Made by a program: the position numbers and the translations under genes | NCBI GenBank assembly: GCA_024639765.1 | Contig: JAHEHU010000002.1 | Coordinates: forward strand, 1-64,000 | Reading direction: 5' to 3' | Source of the DNA: Eudoraea sp. | Lineage (GTDB): Bacteria; Bacteroidota; Bacteroidia; Flavobacteriales; Flavobacteriaceae | DNA: 64,000 nt | In this document: positions 14,068-22,708 of the stretch, piece by piece | Layout of the letters: each line of letters starts with the position of its first letter | Position numbering within the stretch: position 1 is the stretch's first letter | Notes under the pieces: generated by a model | The model's database searches: none | What the model was told of the DNA's origin: nothing | What the model saw: only the letters and a program-made list of their open reading frames with translations

Positions 14068-14883
14068 ATGGATAAACTTCCAAAAATTGCATTACCAGTT
14101 GTATTCATCATCATTGTTTTGGTGATCCTCATTTCGAAATCGGCTGTTACTATTGGCTCAGGGGAGGCCGGTGTTTTATATAAGACTTTTTCAGGTGGTG
14201 TAGTAACTGAAGAGGCCCCATTGGGAGAGGGCTTTCACATAGTGGCTCCCTGGAATAAGGTTTTTATCTACGAGGTAAGACAACAAGAAGTATTTGAAAA
14301 AATGCAAGTGCTTTCTTCAAATGGTCTGGAGATAAAATTAGATGCTTCTGCCTGGTTTGAGCCCAAATATGAGGACCTGGGTAAATTGCATCAGGAAAAA
14401 GGTGAAGCATATGTTCAGCGTGTGTTGTTGCCAACTATACGATCTGCTGCCAGAAGTGTGGTAGGACGATATACACCAGAACAATTGTACTCAAGTAAAA
14501 GAGATGCTATTCAGGCGGAAATATACGAAGAGACCAAAAAAATTGTTGATGGGCAGTATATTCAACTCAATGAAGTTTTGGTAAGGGATGTTACCTTGCC
14601 TCCTACGATCAAAGAAGCGATAGAAAGAAAATTAAAGCAGGAACAAGAATCGCTGGAGTATGAATTTAGACTAATTACTGCAGATAAAGAGGCCCAGAGA
14701 CAGATCATTGAAGCACAAGGTAAAGCAGATGCAAACCGAATATTAAGTGCTTCCTTGACAGATAAAATCCTTCAGGATAAAGGAATAGAAGCTACCTTGA
14801 AATTAGCGGAATCGCCCAATGCTAAGGTAGTTGTGGTAGGATCTGGAGATGCCGGATTGCCTTTGATTTTAGGAAATAATTAG
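14068..14883 (+). CDS. prohibitin/SPFH family protein
   Basis: N-terminal TM, SPFH fold motifs (RSAARSVVGRYTPEQLYSSKRDAIQAEIYEE). Confidence 0.9.
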   Translation: MDKLPKIALPVVFIIIVLVILISKSAVTIGSGEAGVLYKTFSGGVVTEEAPLGEGFHIVAPWNKVFIYEVRQQEVFEKMQVLSSNGLEIKLDASAWFEPKYEDLGKLHQEKGEAYVQRVLLPTIRSAARSVVGRYTPEQLYSSKRDAIQAEIYEETKKIVDGQYIQLNEVLVRDVTLPPTIKEAIERKLKQEQESLEYEFRLITADKEAQRQIIEAQGKADANRILSASLTDKILQDKGIEATLKLAESPNAKVVVVGSGDAGLPLILGNN

Positions 14884-14895
14884 TAAGTGTAAATT

Positions 14896-14925
14896 TTTGT
14901 AGAAGAAAAATAAATTCTACATTTG
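14896..14925 (+). promoter_or_regulatory. his operon promoter: TTTG (14896-14899), 18-nt spacer, TACATTTG (14918-14925)
   Basis: Both elements match the Bacteroidota -33 TTTG / -7 TAnnTTTG consensus. Confidence 0.7.
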
Positions 14926-14932
14926 CTCCAAT

Positions 14933-14986
14933 ATGAAAAACAAGAATACACATCATCATTCTGACTCTTGCCCTCAAGCAGGTTAG
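14933..14986 (+). CDS. hisL: his operon leader peptide MKNKNTHHHSDSCPQAG*
   Basis: 17-codon ORF with three consecutive CAT codons, followed by an attenuator and hisG. Confidence 0.85.
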   Translation: MKNKNTHHHSDSCPQAG

Positions 14987-15027
14987 GAAGGTATTGTTGT
15001 ATTACACCATATCCGGACCCGTTTGAG
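14973..15027 (+). promoter_or_regulatory. predicted antiterminator pairing CTCAAGCAGGT (14973-14983) with ACCCGTTTGAG (15017-15027)
   Basis: 10 of 11 positions pair (one G:U, one A-C mismatch); mutually exclusive with the terminator stem. Confidence 0.7.
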
Positions 15028-15054
15028 CAATCAAACGGGTTTTGTTTTTCTTTT
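15017..15054 (+). terminator. his attenuator terminator ACCCGTTTGA-GCAA-TCAAACGGGT + U tract
   Basis: 10-bp perfect stem, tetraloop, followed by TTTGTTTTTCTTTT; 25 nt before hisG. Confidence 0.9.
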
Positions 15055-15078
15055 AAAAGTATTTAAAGTTCGGCAAGT

Positions 15079-15933
15079 ATGAAATTAAAGATAGCGATAC
15101 AGAAATCTGGTCGGTTAAATGAAGACTCTCTCAAGATCCTTAAGGATTGCGGGATCTCTATTGATAATGGCAAAGATCAGTTAAAGGCATCTTCTCGTAA
15201 TTTTCCAATGGAAGTGTTTTATCTAAGAAATGGAGATATACCACAATACCTTAGGGATGGCGTGGTAGATGTAGCTATTATTGGTGAAAATGTCTTGGTG
15301 GAAAAGGGAGAGGACATTAAGGTAGCTGAGAAATTAGGCTTTTCGAAGTGCAGGGTTTCTCTGGCAGTGCCAAAATCATTCCAATATAATTCTATAAAAG
15401 ACCTACAGGGGAAGCGTATTGCAACCTCCTATCCCAATACCGTAGAGAATTATCTTAAAAGCAGAGGGATCCAGGCCGAAATGCACATTATCAATGGTTC
15501 TGTTGAGATCGCTCCGAACATAGGTTTAGCCGATGCTATCTGTGATATTGTCTCTAGCGGAAGCACCCTTTTTAAGAACAATTTAAAAGAGGTGGAGAAG
15601 ATACTGACCAGTGAGGCTGTGTTGGCAGTATCTCCTGAAATAGGAGCTGAGCAAATGGAGGTCCTGGAAAAATTGCAATTCAGAATTCGCTCAGTTCTTG
15701 CTGCCAGGCAATCCAAGTATGTTTTGATGAACGTACCCAATGACAGTCTAGATACTATTATAGAGTTATTGCCCGGCATGAGGAGTCCAACCGTACTGCC
15801 TCTGGCAGAAGAAGGGTGGAGTTCTGTGCATACGGTTATCAATAAAGATACCTTCTGGGAGGTCATAGACGAACTAAGACAGGCAGGCGCCGAAGGAATT
15901 TTGGTTTGCCCAATTGAAAAAATGCTAATCTAA
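15079..15933 (+). CDS. hisG: ATP phosphoribosyltransferase
   Basis: HisG motifs (KLKIAIQKSGRL, ATSYPNTV, DAICDIVSSGSTL) and regulatory C-terminal domain. Confidence 0.96.
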   Translation: MKLKIAIQKSGRLNEDSLKILKDCGISIDNGKDQLKASSRNFPMEVFYLRNGDIPQYLRDGVVDVAIIGENVLVEKGEDIKVAEKLGFSKCRVSLAVPKSFQYNSIKDLQGKRIATSYPNTVENYLKSRGIQAEMHIINGSVEIAPNIGLADAICDIVSSGSTLFKNNLKEVEKILTSEAVLAVSPEIGAEQMEVLEKLQFRIRSVLAARQSKYVLMNVPNDSLDTIIELLPGMRSPTVLPLAEEGWSSVHTVINKDTFWEVIDELRQAGAEGILVCPIEKMLI

Positions 15934-15942
15934 GATCCCGCA

Positions 15943-17238
15943 ATGAATAAGATATTTGATCCAAAACCAAATGAATGGGAGTCGCTACTTGCCAGGCCAA
16001 CGCAAAAGGTTGGTGACATTGAGGCAACAGTAAATGCTATTTTTAAGTCCGTTGGACAAAAAGGTGATGAGGCTTTAAGATCTTATACCGAAAAGTTCGA
16101 TGGTGTAACCGTAGATAACTTTCAAGTAGGAGAGGACGCTCTTACTGGGGCAGAAGAATCAATTTCAGAACCCCTAAAAAGGGCAATTCAAAAAGCCTAT
16201 CAGAATATCAAACGCTTTCATGAAGCGCAAGCAACACCTGTAGTAAAGCTGGAAACATCACCGGGCGTAGAGTGTTGGCAGGAAAAAAGACCCATTCAAA
16301 AAGTGGGATTATATATCCCTGGGGGTACAGCACCTCTGTTCTCTACAATATTAATGTTGGCCATCCCTGCTAAAATTGCTGGTTGCGAGGACATAGTACT
16401 TTGTTCACCTCCAGACAAGAAAGGTGAGTTGCCTGCCGTGGTGCTATATACAGCGAAACTTTGCGGGATAACCAAGGTATTTAAAGTAGGGGGCATCCAG
16501 GCAATTGCTGCTTTAACTTTTGGAACACAGAGTGTGCCTAAAGTCTACAAGATCTTTGGCCCGGGCAACCAATATGTTACCGTAGCCAAGCAGTTGGCTA
16601 CCAGGTACGGCATTTCAATTGATATGCCTGCGGGCCCCAGTGAGTTATTGGTGATGGCAGATGAAACAGCAGAGCCAAGTTTTGTGGCGTCCGATCTTTT
16701 GAGTCAGGCTGAGCACGGCACGGATAGTCAGGTGATCCTGGTGTCTACCTCAAAAAATATCATTGAAAAAGTAGAAAAAGAAGTGGCGCAGCAACTAGAG
16801 GAACTTCCAAGAAAGGAGATCGCACGGAAAGCGATCGCCAATAGTAAACTTATTTTTGTTCCTTCAGATACAGATGCTGTAGCATTGATAAATGAGTACG
16901 CCCCGGAACATTATATTCTCTGTGTGAAAAACGAACAGTATTACCTGGATAATACCACCAATGCAGGTTCTGTTTTTATTGGGAATTATACCCCGGAAAG
17001 CGCAGGAGACTACGCTTCGGGTACTAACCATACCCTACCCACTAATGGTTATGCAAAACAGTACAGCGGTGTAAATTTAGACAGCTTCATGAAAAGCATC
17101 ACCTTTCAAAAGATATCTGAAAAAGGAATACTTTCTCTGGGTGAAACCATTGAAATCATGGCAGCGGCAGAAGGATTAGCGGCCCATAAAAATGCAGTTA
17201 CGCTGCGGTTGAACAAATTAAAGGAAACAGTGAATTAA
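15943..17238 (+). CDS. hisD: histidinol dehydrogenase
   Basis: GLYIPGGTAPLFST, GPGNQYVTVAK, MPAGPSELLV, SAGDYASGTNHTLPTNGYA. Confidence 0.97.
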   Translation: MNKIFDPKPNEWESLLARPTQKVGDIEATVNAIFKSVGQKGDEALRSYTEKFDGVTVDNFQVGEDALTGAEESISEPLKRAIQKAYQNIKRFHEAQATPVVKLETSPGVECWQEKRPIQKVGLYIPGGTAPLFSTILMLAIPAKIAGCEDIVLCSPPDKKGELPAVVLYTAKLCGITKVFKVGGIQAIAALTFGTQSVPKVYKIFGPGNQYVTVAKQLATRYGISIDMPAGPSELLVMADETAEPSFVASDLLSQAEHGTDSQVILVSTSKNIIEKVEKEVAQQLEELPRKEIARKAIANSKLIFVPSDTDAVALINEYAPEHYILCVKNEQYYLDNTTNAGSVFIGNYTPESAGDYASGTNHTLPTNGYAKQYSGVNLDSFMKSITFQKISEKGILSLGETIEIMAAAEGLAAHKNAVTLRLNKLKETVN

Positions 17239-17250
17239 TTGGTTAGATGA

Positions 17251-18315
17251 ATGAGTAAGGAAAAGACATCCTTGAATTTTGACTTGTTTCAACTGGTACG
17301 CGAGAATGTAAAGGCCATGACACCGTATTCTTCAGCCAGAGATGAGTACGTCTCAGATGGTTCCGAAAAGATCTTTATGGATGCCAATGAAAATCCAAAT
17401 GAAAATGGGGTTAATCGTTACCCCGATCCTCAACAAAGATCCCTTAAAGCAACCTTAGCCGCCATTAAAGGGGTTCAGCAAGACCATATTTTATTGGGAA
17501 ATGGCAGTGATGAAGTACTCGACCTTCTTTTCCGTGCCTTTTGTGAGCCTTCTATGGACAATGTAATTACAGTTCCTCCTACCTATGGCATGTATAGTGT
17601 TTTGGCATCACTTAATGCTATTGAGAACAGGAAGGTATTACTAACCTCCTCTTTTTCACTTAATGTCAATGAGATCCTTGCCAACGTTGATAAGAATACT
17701 AAGATAATCTTTCTGTGTTCTCCTAATAATCCCACAGGGAATTGTATCCCCAGAGATCAGATAAAACGGGTGTTGGAAAATTTTCAGGGCCTGGTGGTTA
17801 TAGATGAGGCCTACGTAGACTTCTCAACCGAAGAAAGCTGGTTGGGAGATCTGTCTGACTATAAAAATCTGGTAGTTACTCAAACCTTGTCCAAGGCGTA
17901 CGGCATGGCAGCTATTAGATTGGGATCTTGTTTTGCATCCAAAGAGATCATTGGTATCTTAAATAAGATAAAACCTCCGTACAATGTGAACGAATTAACG
18001 CAAATCAAGGCAAAAGAAAGGCTTCTTCAAAAAAATGATGTGGAGCAGGAGGTTGCCACAATTGTCAAAGAACGAAAAAGACTTGAAACAGCCCTGGGAT
18101 CTATTCCTTTCGTGAAACATATATACCCAAGTGAGGCTAATTTTATTTTAGCAGTAGTTGATGATGCAGCGAGTCGATATGAGCAATTATTAGAGAAGGG
18201 TATAATAGTGAGAAACCGTTCTGGCCAACCCCTTTGTTTAAATACACTGCGGTTTACAGTGGGAACGCCGGCAGAAAACGATAGTTTGATAAGGGTGCTA
18301 AAAGAAGTAATATGA
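17251..18315 (+). CDS. hisC: histidinol-phosphate aminotransferase
   Basis: PLP aminotransferase; [32 protein letters not shown]. Confidence 0.96.
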
Positions 18316-19460
18316 AAACAGTTCAGAAAAAAAAGGTATTGTTCATAGACCGGGACGGGACACTCATTAAAGAGCCTGCTGATGAGCAGATAGACTCCTT
18401 CGAAAAACTAATTTTTTATCCGGGTATTTTCACTTATCTGGGCAAAATAGCCAAAGAACTTTCTTATGAATTAGTAATGGTCACCAATCAGGATGGCTTA
18501 GGAACGGAATCATATCCCGAGGATACTTTTTGGCCGGTACATAAATTCATCATGGCCACAATGGAACAAGAAGGGATCGTTTTTGATAAAGTGTTGATAG
18601 ACAAAACATATCCTCACGAAAATGCCGATACGCGGAAACCGGCAACCGGACTACTAACCGATTATTTTTCCGAGGAGTATGATCTGCAAAACTCATATGT
18701 AATAGGGGATAGACTTACCGATATGGAATTGGCTAAGAACCTAGATGCAAAAGGTATATTAATACAAAATAACCTGAACCTCGGTGTCAATGAGATCACT
18801 GTAGATCAAAAAAAAGTAAGATCAGTTATTGCTTTGGAAACGGGATCATGGGAAGCAATCTATCAATATTTAGTTGGCAAAAACAGAATAGCCTCCCATA
18901 CACGAAACACAAAAGAAACGCAAATTACCATCGAATTGAATTTGGATGGGACGGGCATTTCCGATATTTCAACCGGACTTGCATTTTTTGATCATATGCT
19001 AGATCAATTAGCACGTCATGGCCAATTAGACCTTTCTCTTAAGGTGGCTGGTGATCTGGAAGTAGATGAACACCACACTATTGAAGATACCGCTATAGCA
19101 CTTGGAGAGGTTTTTTACGAAGCACTGGGCTCAAAATTAGGAATTGAGCGCTACGGCTTTTGCCTTCCAATGGATGATTGTCTCGCACAAGCAGCCATTG
19201 ATTTTGGTGGTCGAAACTGGTTGGTGTGGGAGGCAGATTTTAAACGTGAAAAGATAGGTGATATGCCTACTGAGATGTTTTTTCATTTTTTCAAATCTTT
19301 TACAGATGGTGCCAAGGCAAATCTCAATATTAAAGCAGAGGGAACCAATGAACACCATAAGATTGAAGCAATATTTAAAGCATTTGCAAAGGCTATTAAA
19401 ATGGCAGTAAAACGAGACCAGGAAAAGATGATCTTGCCTTCTACAAAAGGTATGTTATAA
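18312..19460 (+). CDS. hisB: bifunctional histidinol-phosphatase / imidazoleglycerol-phosphate dehydratase
   Basis: HAD motif FIDRDGTL plus IGPD motifs ([27 protein letters not shown]). Confidence 0.96.
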
Positions 19461-19463
19461 AAG

Positions 19464-20051
19464 GTGATTATGAAGATCGTGATCATAGACTACGGTGCAG
19501 GAAACATTCAAAGCATTCAATTTGCTTTGCAACGTCTTGGCTATACGGCTACCTTAAGTAGTGATAAAAATACCATACAAGAAGCAGACAAAGTGATTTT
19601 TCCTGGTGTTGGCGAAGCAAGTAGTGCCATGTCTAAATTAAAGGAGAGTGGTCTTGATGTCTTAATTCCCACGCTTACACAACCAGTATTGGGAATTTGT
19701 TTGGGGATGCAGCTAATGTGCAGGTATTCGGAAGAAGGTGACACCTTGGGTCTGGGGATCTTTGATGTAGATGTGTCAAGGTTCACTAACAAGGTAAAAG
19801 TACCTCAAATTGGCTGGAATCAGATCACGAACTTAAAAACACCTCTTTTTAAAGATGTTGCTGAGAAAGAATATATTTATTTGGTTCACAGCTATTATGC
19901 ACCCTTGTGTGAGGAGACCATTGCGGTCTCAGACTATGAACTGTCATATAGCAGTGCCATGTGCAAGGACAATTTCTGGGGAGTGCAGTTTCATCCCGAA
20001 AAAAGCAGTGATGTTGGGGAACGTATTTTAAAGAATTTTGTAACCCTGTGA
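19464..20051 (+). CDS. hisH: imidazole glycerol phosphate synthase glutamine amidotransferase subunit
   Basis: [21 protein letters not shown]. Confidence 0.96.
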
Positions 20052-20070
20052 ACTTAAGAGAAAACCAGTA

Positions 20071-20808
20071 ATGAGGATCATACCGGCCATAGATATTATT
20101 GAAGGGAGTTGTGTTCGGCTATCCAAGGGGGACTACACCACAAAAAAGGTATATAATGAGGACCCGTTGGAAGTTGCCAAAACGTTTGAGGCACATGGTA
20201 TTGAGCACCTGCATTTGGTAGATCTTGATGGTGCCAAGTCTAAACATATAGTGAATTACAAGATCCTGGAACAAATTGCCTCCAAAACATCATTAAAGAT
20301 CGATTTTGGCGGCGGTTTAAAATCAGACGAGGACCTGCGTATTGCCTTCAATTCTGGTGCAAATCAAATCACAGGAGGTAGCATTGCAGTGAAAGACCGT
20401 GAAACCTTCCTTGGGTGGTTATCTCGTTTTGGTACAGAGAAGATCATTTTAGGAGCTGATGCAATGGATGAAAAGATAGCCGTTTCAGGATGGCAGGAGT
20501 CCTCTACAGAGGAGTTGATCCCATTTATACAACGCTATCAGAAAGAAGGAATTAAATACGTTATTTGTACAGACATCAGTAAGGATGGAATGCTTCAAGG
20601 CCCTTCGGTAGTTCTTTATAAAAAAATCTTACAAAAAACAGCTAATCACTCAACTGCCATACGTCTTGTTGCCAGCGGAGGTATTGCAAAATATGAGGAT
20701 TTGAATATTTTGAAGGAGCTTGGATGTGAAGGAGCCATAATTGGCAAGGCCATTTATGAGAACAGAATTAGTTTAAAACAACTCGAAGGATTTATTATAA
20801 AATCATGA
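20071..20808 (+). CDS. hisA: ProFAR isomerase
   Basis: [21 protein letters not shown]. Confidence 0.96.
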
Positions 20809-21326
20809 ATGAGAACAGATCGGATCTGGCCATAGATTTTATGGATAATGCCATTTACAGAATGGAAGAAAGCCTCAGGATGATAGCCAAAAGTACGGCC
20901 ATCTTAACTGAGGAAGAACTATGGAAAAAACCAAATGATGCCTCCAATAGTATTGGAACTATAGTTATACATCTGAAAGGGAATATCACACAGTATATTC
21001 TTTCCGGTTTGGGGGCTAAGGAAGACCTTAGACAACGCGATTTAGAATTTTCCGTTTCGTATAACTATAGTGCAAAAGAACTAAACCAACAGTTACGGAA
21101 GCTTTTGGATGAAGTTAAAATTGTTCTGCATGATTTAAACGCAAATGAATTGACCAAAACCTATTATGTTCAGGGATTTAAATTAAGTGGTCTGGGTATC
21201 ATACTGCATGTAGTGGAACACTTGTCTTATCATACGGGTCAGATCGCCTTTTGGATTAAGGTAATGAAGAACAAAGACCTGGGCTTTTACGAAGGCTTGG
21301 ATCTGAATACTAAAAATGAGAACTAA
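20805..21326 (+). CDS. DUF1572/DinB-like protein embedded in the his operon
   Basis: DinB-like four-helix pattern, [13 protein letters not shown] and [15 protein letters not shown]; overlaps hisA stop and abuts hisF. Confidence 0.8.
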
Positions 21327-22082
21327 ATGCTGACCAAAAGGATCATTCCTTGCCTCGATATTAAGAATGGACGCACGGTAAAGGGAATTAACTTTGTGGA
21401 TCTCCGCGATGCCGGAGACCCTGTTGAATTGGCGCAGCGTTATGCCAAAGAAGGAGCTGATGAACTTGTATTTCTTGACATCTCTGCTACCGAAGAAGAA
21501 CGTAAGACCCTTGCCGATTTGGTTAAAAGGGTCGCTGAAAAAGTAAACATTCCATTTACAGTGGGCGGTGGTATTTCTTCCGTTGAAGATGTGAGTAAAT
21601 TGCTACACAATGGGGCAGACAAGATCTCTATAAATTCATCGGCCGTTAAGAATCCGGAACTGATAAATGACTTGGTTGCAAAATTTGGCTCACAATGTAT
21701 CGTGGTAGCTATTGATGCCAAAAGAGTGAATAAGACATGGAAAGTGCATTTGGTTGGGGGAAAGGTACCTACAGATATTGATCTATTCGAATGGGCCAAA
21801 GAAGTGGAGGAAAGGGGAGCAGGAGAGATCCTTTTTACTTCCATGGACCATGACGGAACTAAGAATGGATTTGCCAATGAAGCACTTGCCCAATTATCCG
21901 AGACCTTAAACATCCCTATTATTGCTTCCGGTGGCGCGGGGAATATGGAGCATTTTGCGGACACCTTTTCGTTGGGAAAGGCAGACGCTGCATTGGCTGC
22001 CAGTGTTTTCCATTTTAAAGAAATTGAGATCCTGGACCTGAAGAATTTTCTAATGGAACGGAATATCCCCATGCGGGTGTAA
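21327..22082 (+). CDS. hisF: imidazole glycerol phosphate synthase cyclase subunit
   Basis: [20 protein letters not shown]. Confidence 0.97.
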
Positions 22083-22111
22083 AAAGTTATCACATCAATA
22101 AAAAGCTAAAA

Positions 22112-22708
22112 ATGAAAGTAGATTTTAATAAAAATAACGACGGACTTGTGCCGGCTATCATTCAAGACGCCCAAACAAAGAATATTCTGATGCTAGGCTA
22201 TATGAATCAGGAAGCACTGAACAGCACATTAGATACAGGGAAGGTCACTTTTTACAGCAGGACTAAAAAACGACTTTGGACCAAAGGAGAAGAAAGCGGC
22301 CACTTTCTAACTGTTAGAGAAATAAAGGTAGATTGTGATCAGGATACCTTACTTGTATCCGTAATTCCTGAGGGTCCTACCTGTCACAAGGGATCCGACA
22401 CTTGCTGGAATACTGAGAACAGCGCATCCTATGGTTTTTTGACGGAGTTGGAAAGTGTTATAGCCAATAGGCAACGTAATGCCACTTCTGAAAAGAGTTA
22501 TGTGGCGTCACTTTTTGAAAAAGGGATCAATAAAATAGCACAGAAAGTAGGAGAGGAGGCTGTAGAAGTGGTAATTGAAGCTAAGGATTCTAATGAGGAA
22601 CGTTTCCTCAACGAGGGAGCCGACCTGCTTTTTCATTATCTGATCTTATTACGAGCCAAAGGAGTTAGCCTTGAAGATGTGGTCAAAGTTTTAGAGGAGC
22701 GCCATTGA
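22112..22708 (+). CDS. hisIE: bifunctional phosphoribosyl-AMP cyclohydrolase / phosphoribosyl-ATP diphosphatase
   Basis: MLGYMNQEAL, SRTKKRLWTKGEESGH, and HisE domain EEAVEVVIEA. Confidence 0.96.
   Translation: MKVDFNKNNDGLVPAIIQDAQTKNILMLGYMNQEALNSTLDTGKVTFYSRTKKRLWTKGEESGHFLTVREIKVDCDQDTLLVSVIPEGPTCHKGSDTCWNTENSASYGFLTELESVIANRQRNATSEKSYVASLFEKGINKIAQKVGEEAVEVVIEAKDSNEERFLNEGADLLFHYLILLRAKGVSLEDVVKVLEERH

Follow-up and report, generated by a model that had tools for sequence, protein, structure and literature searches.

Our analysis of the window, a 64,000-nucleotide stretch of DNA from Eudoraea sp., leads us to propose with high confidence that its his operon is preceded by a ribosome-mediated (leader-peptide) transcription attenuator, for which a response to histidine is predicted. 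The proposal draws on sequence comparison and modelling, namely on the parts of the element, their conservation in relatives, the covariation of the helices and the structures predicted for different ribosome positions.

Leader ORF, terminator and antiterminator upstream of hisG

The window contains a complete his operon on the forward strand (15079–22708), in the order hisG-hisD-hisC-hisB-hisH-hisA-(DinB/DUF1572-like)-hisF-hisIE. The first gene, hisG (15079–15933; TIGR00070, 194.7 bits), encodes an ATP phosphoribosyltransferase that is 93% identical to HisG of an uncultured Muriicola and 88% identical to that of Muriicola marianensis, which marks the genome as Muriicola-like within the Flavobacteriaceae; the remaining genes, including a bifunctional hisB, occupy 15943–22708. 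The DinB/DUF1572-like gene (20805–21326) lies inside the operon, between hisA and hisF, and overlaps the end of hisA.

Upstream of hisG and on the same strand, a 17-codon ORF encoding MKNKNTHHHSDSCPQAG runs from an ATG at 14933 to a TAG at 14984–14986 and carries three consecutive CAT (His) control codons at 14951–14959, exactly as described in the initial annotation. Short leader ORFs rich in codons for the relevant amino acid are characteristic of ribosome-mediated attenuators, and this ORF, with HHH among 17 codons 5′ of hisG and conserved in relatives, is of that kind. It is the sole ORF in the window that combines an ATG, three consecutive His codons and a nearby terminator. Among 60 random windows matched in dinucleotide composition, 0.6 ORFs with a His triplet were found per window and none with a terminator; the arrangement of ORF and terminator is far from chance.

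Between the leader ORF and hisG, as in known attenuators, lies an intrinsic terminator, which was also found independently by a terminator scan. Its stem consists of ten Watson-Crick pairs formed by 15017–15026 and the 3′ arm TCAAACGGGT (15031–15040), enclosing a GCAA loop and followed by TTTTGTTTTTCTTTT; the U tract spans 15040–15055, its first U closing the stem. The perfect 10-bp hairpin noted at the outset is therefore confirmed, and the distance of 25 nt to hisG given with it is approximately right only when the end of the U tract is taken as the starting point, the stem itself ending 38 nt from the hisG ATG. The last leader codons, CTCAAGCAGGT (14973–14983), immediately 5′ of the stop codon, pair at 10 of 11 positions with ACCCGTTTGAG (15017–15027), as had been claimed, with one A.C mismatch and one G.U pair. 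The segment 15017–15027 is thus the 3′ arm of an antiterminator, of which 15017–15026 doubles as the 5′ arm of the terminator. That the two helices are mutually exclusive alternatives sharing one arm is indicated by this pairing and by the swap tests and folding described below. The fold of the region 14920–15060 has a z-score of −5.1.

Predicted promoter and near-leaderless start

The Bacteroidota sigma-A consensus comprises TTTG near −33 and TAnnTTTG at −7 (PMC7366714), and in Flavobacterium psychrophilum the TAnnTTTG box is located at −12 to −5 (PMC9723704). In the window, TTTG at 14896–14899 is a candidate −33 element by this consensus and TACATTTG at 14918–14925 matches the −7 box, from which a transcription start at ∼14930 is predicted. 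Both lie in the interval between an upstream, co-directional SPFH/Band 7 gene (14068–14883), which ends 49 nt 5′ of the leader ORF, and the leader itself, giving the order SPFH/Band 7 gene, promoter-like TTTG...TACATTTG (14896–14925), leader ORF, terminator and hisG.

The −7 box is separated from the leader ATG by 7 nt in the window, and 77 of 80 named relatives have a TAnnTTT(G/A) box 6–9 nt 5′ of the leader ATG, mostly at exactly 7. Elsewhere in the Flavobacteriaceae, boxes that could be recognised are often 17–20 nt from the ATG. A spacing of 6–9 nt implies a 5′ untranslated part of ∼3 nt, such that the leader mRNA is predicted, from the promoter motif, to be nearly leaderless, with the start codon ∼3 nt from the transcription start. 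In F. psychrophilum, leaderless mRNAs account for only ∼5.5% (PMC9723704).

Conservation across Bacteroidota

Upstream regions of hisG were sampled from relatives at increasing distance. A His-rich leader with 2–6 His codons is present in 97 of 98 regions from Flavobacteriales, the exception (L074) being cut by the contig end; 95 of these leaders were recovered by an ATG scan and two (L045 and L051) start with GTG. A terminator follows the leader in 94 of the 95 ATG-scan regions under a strict pattern, and the remaining one, L094, shows a hairpin with an irregular stem. Leader and terminator are both found in all 80 named relatives (Maribacter, Zobellia, Arenibacter, Cellulophaga, Allomuricauda, Aquimarina and others). 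The alignment of these regions bears out the proposal made from the single sequence, with the His run, the terminator and the antiterminator all kept.

The SPFH/Band 7 gene adjoins hisG in 105 of 138 loci tested, and this synteny, together with its orientation and proximity, would be consistent with the hairpin being the 3′ terminator of that gene and the His-rich ORF being coincidental. We regard this as highly improbable, as a promoter box separates the gene from the leader, leader and terminator persist where the upstream gene differs (e.g. L012, L018, L022, L028, L116 and L126), and a coincidental ORF would not have kept its His codons in nearly every region examined; nor would the end of such an ORF match each lineage's own terminator, as is observed below.

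In the wider phylum, many of the families sampled that have a similar HisG also have His-rich leaders (f18, f19, f20, f23, f29, f37, f42 and f47), which are less clear in families f34 and f36. A leader was not recognised in the sampled families f24, f27, f31 and f38, nor in any sampled family whose HisG is of the other type (PKGS-like start). His attenuation is very probably old and widespread in Bacteroidota too. In a few lineages, no clear terminator accompanies the His-rich ORF; in f18 (L208–L211), His-rich leader ORFs lie 5′ of hisG without a strong intrinsic terminator, and the mechanism in this family may differ from that in the window.

Covariation of the helices

The leader of most Flavobacteriaceae has CTCAAGCGAGG at its end, which is complementary to the terminator start ACCCGTTTGAG. 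Across 31 diverse sequences, 99.7% of terminator cells are paired, with compensatory double changes at 5 of the 10 pairs (0 of 500 shuffles), and 95.1% of antiterminator cells are paired. Within the close family the covariation of the antiterminator is modest, with double changes at one pair and a score reached by 21 of 500 shuffles, because the arm is almost invariant there. This signal is too weak to carry the argument and a swap test between lineages was therefore used. For 15 lineages, many with unrelated terminator sequences, the true partners gave −15.53 kcal/mol as against −9.53 kcal/mol (sd 0.84) for swapped partners, with 0 of 5000 swaps reaching the true value; the true partners likewise beat all swaps among 37 non-redundant sequences (−14.01 against −11.66, sd 0.37) and among 94 sequences (−13.54 against −11.91, sd 0.19), relatedness being only partly removed in each of the three sets. 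In the sequences compared, the strong covariation of the antiterminator thus lies between lineages and not inside the close family. Terminators of unrelated sequence, such as AAGGCTTACC, ACCCCGGC, TCCTACCTG and GGCTGTGGT, are found in other lineages with the leader end altered to match, and matched pairs of leader end and terminator are seen in L038 (GCGGTAGGCT with GGCTTACCGC), L036 (CACCACGGC with GCTGTGGTG) and L220 (GAGCCGGG with CCCGGCTT). The compensatory changes that the initial annotation had named as a check are therefore present, in that both helices stay paired as their sequences change.

The element CTCAAGCGAG occupies other reading frames in several species, encoding SSEL or SNEL, or being read as CTC-AAG-TGA, instead of QAR. 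Its retention across shifting frames indicates that the RNA, and not the C-terminus of the peptide, is under selection. This bears on the alternative that the leader ORF acts on hisG by translation re-initiation, Rho-dependent polarity or a trans-acting peptide. Re-initiation has been put forward as a way in which leader ORFs raise translation downstream (PMC4833913), and the His-rich ORFs of f18 might use one of these three routes. For the window such a mechanism appears very unlikely, since 92 nt separate the leader stop from the hisG ATG, compared with a peak at 11–14 nt reported for Bacteroidetes (PMC4833913), the peptide C-terminus shifts frame while the RNA element is constant, and the terminator is conserved with compensatory changes.

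A third conserved pairing, P1, brackets the antiterminator arm. The stretch directly 3′ of the leader stop (14987–15003 in the window and the same place in relatives), often AATGTATTG, is strongly conserved and has as its pairing partner the leader's 5′ portion, (ATT)CAATTACAT or AATACACAT; the near-invariance of the stretch may have a further reason beyond pairing, for example a polymerase pause site. In the family, true P1 partners (−8.70 kcal/mol) beat all 2000 swaps (−6.65 kcal/mol). In the window, P1 comprises six pairs only, between AATACA (14945–14950) and TGTATT (14998–15003), which form in the minimum free energy structure when the RNA is ribosome-free. Because it encloses the antiterminator arm, P1 could form alongside the antiterminator only as a pseudoknot; without a ribosome, P1 would be expected to favour termination. 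The initial description of a compact element needing essentially one terminator and one antiterminator is consequently too simple for the family, although P1 is weak in the window's genus.

Predicted structures in different ribosome states and proposed mechanism

Nascent RNA extending as far as the base 5′ of the terminator 3′ arm was folded in three ribosome states. For the window, the predicted probability of the antiterminator is 0.93–0.98 with the ribosome stalled at a His codon, 0.00 with it at the stop codon and 0.94 in ribosome-free RNA; the medians for 94 relatives are 0.75, 0.00 and 0.21, respectively. The E. coli hisL control switches in the same kind of calculation, its terminator 5′ arm being paired upstream with a probability of 0.63 in the stalled state and 0.05 in the other two, which shows that the method recognises a known attenuator. 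The geometry first suggested, in which a stalled ribosome leaves the antiterminator arm free and a ribosome at the stop covers it, is reproduced by this constrained folding; at the level of structure prediction, a ribosome at the control codons and one at the stop codon select different structures, as expected for an attenuator. The full-length terminator is favoured thermodynamically in every ribosome state (P ∼0.99). Antitermination must then rest on the antiterminator forming first, i.e. the switch is kinetic, as is usual for leader-peptide attenuation. In addition, the folding of the ribosome-free window leader into the antiterminator predicts little default termination, unlike for E. coli hisL.

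In the proposed mechanism, RNA polymerase would start at ∼14930 and a ribosome would load very near the 5′ end of the transcript, on the leader ORF. When charged His-tRNA is scarce, the ribosome would stall at the CAT codons and leave 14973–14983 free to pair with 15017–15027 as soon as the latter is made, so that the terminator would come too late and transcription would continue into hisG and onward. When His-tRNA is plentiful, the ribosome would reach the stop at 14984 and cover 14973–14983, allowing the terminator to form and transcription to end before hisG.

Relation to known attenuators

The Rfam his-leader scan suggested with the initial annotation did not place the element in that family: there is no His_leader (RF00514) match in the window, nor at E up to 10 in 14880–15090, while the E. 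coli control scores 131.6 bits against a gathering score of 49 bits. T-box covariance models likewise gave no match in the window at gathering or in 14880–15090 at E up to 10, and Rfam at gathering and permissive thresholds returned nothing credible at this locus. These results also argue against a tRNA- or metabolite-binding riboswitch, such as a T-box, or a protein-binding attenuator, with which the element has the choice between terminator and antiterminator in common. Given, in addition, that it is the His codons and helices that stay constant, and that the alignment shows no aptamer-like conserved core, we consider regulation of this type extremely unlikely. The window element is outside Rfam His_leader, and its most fitting place is within the ribosome-mediated class, as an additional his attenuator.

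It resembles E. coli hisL (RF00514) in its leader peptide with His codons, the intrinsic terminator before hisG, an antiterminator sharing the terminator 5′ arm, and similar predicted folding with a stalled ribosome as against a ribosome at the stop. It differs in having 3 rather than 7 His codons, 30 rather than 61 nt between the stop codon and the terminator, and an antiterminator 5′ arm located inside the last leader codons instead of downstream of the stop; unlike E. coli hisL, it has a leader that begins very close to the predicted 5′ end and, in the window's genus, is without a strong default-termination hairpin. Leader ORFs at or near the 5′ end of the transcript are known from leaderless leader-peptide attenuators, such as Sinorhizobium trpL and mycobacterial leader ORFs, though these belong to other phyla and concern other amino acids, and the start site in the window is predicted solely from the promoter box.

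Candidate his attenuators have been described in the Bacillus cereus group, Eubacteriales and Erysipelotrichales (PMC9413887). Like the window element, these Firmicutes candidates have a His-rich leader peptide, a terminator and an antiterminator and fall outside RF00514; they belong to another phylum, and the likeness noted is one of architecture. Closer at hand, the main text of the F. psychrophilum study reports strong clues for leader-peptide attenuation before amino acid operons and structured 5′ elements upstream of hisG and pheA, the hisG element being conserved in other Flavobacteriaceae, without an Rfam match and unexplained (PMC9723704). It concerns the same bacterial family and the same gene as the window element; the main text gives no mechanism, sequence or covariation for hisG (PMC9723704). 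In a 2021 survey of his genes in the superphylum, S. enterica and E. coli are the only organisms for which attenuation is mentioned (PMC8305728). The literature searched, which did not extend to older comparative attenuation work in subscription journals, yielded no account of the base-level mechanism, of the covariation between lineages or of the spread through the phylum. The element is thus not wholly unreported (PMC9723704), nor is it limited to the window genome; new relative to this literature are the base-level mechanism, the covariation, the spread in the phylum and the leader start near the predicted 5′ end.

Other amino acid operons and implications

The same genome carries a trp leader, MKTKAVHTWWWNPLRPMS, 5′ of trpE with its own terminator (contig C13). 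Its promoter box lies ∼5 nt before the ATG, and its end, TGTCGTGA, pairs with TCACGACA in the terminator loop and 3′ arm; the trp leader is conserved in relatives. At 18 of 18 trpE loci examined in relatives, a terminator follows a short ORF containing a run of two or three Trp codons, and his and trp attenuation seem to be the rule in this group. No convincing leader was found before either ilvD copy of the same genome, and two thr stretches scanned (homoserine dehydrogenase loci) gave no leader by the criteria used. The two full-length ilvD copies are on separate contigs (C95 and C174) of an assembly with a listed contamination of 4.2%, and one of them may be foreign to the genome.

Leader-peptide attenuation is textbook knowledge from Proteobacteria, the mechanism being most familiar from E. 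coli, and surveys based on Rfam record amino acid attenuators only where models match. As judged from the comparisons presented here, our results point to control of this type, through unrelated sequences, for the his operon in Flavobacteriales and in several more families of Bacteroidota, which implies a regulatory layer in Bacteroidota that is largely unannotated. Classical attenuation requires a ribosome close behind RNA polymerase, and initiation in Bacteroidota is independent of Shine-Dalgarno (SD) pairing; transcription-translation coupling in an SD-independent phylum can therefore be assayed readily with these leaders. We further put forward, tentatively and as somewhat less probable than its converse, that compact, near-leaderless his attenuation is ancestral to much of Bacteroidota, with the antiterminator arm inside the last leader codons and, in the window's genus, ribosome-free transcripts reading through by default and termination needing a ribosome. 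If true, this would mean tight coupling of transcription and translation in a phylum without Shine-Dalgarno pairing.
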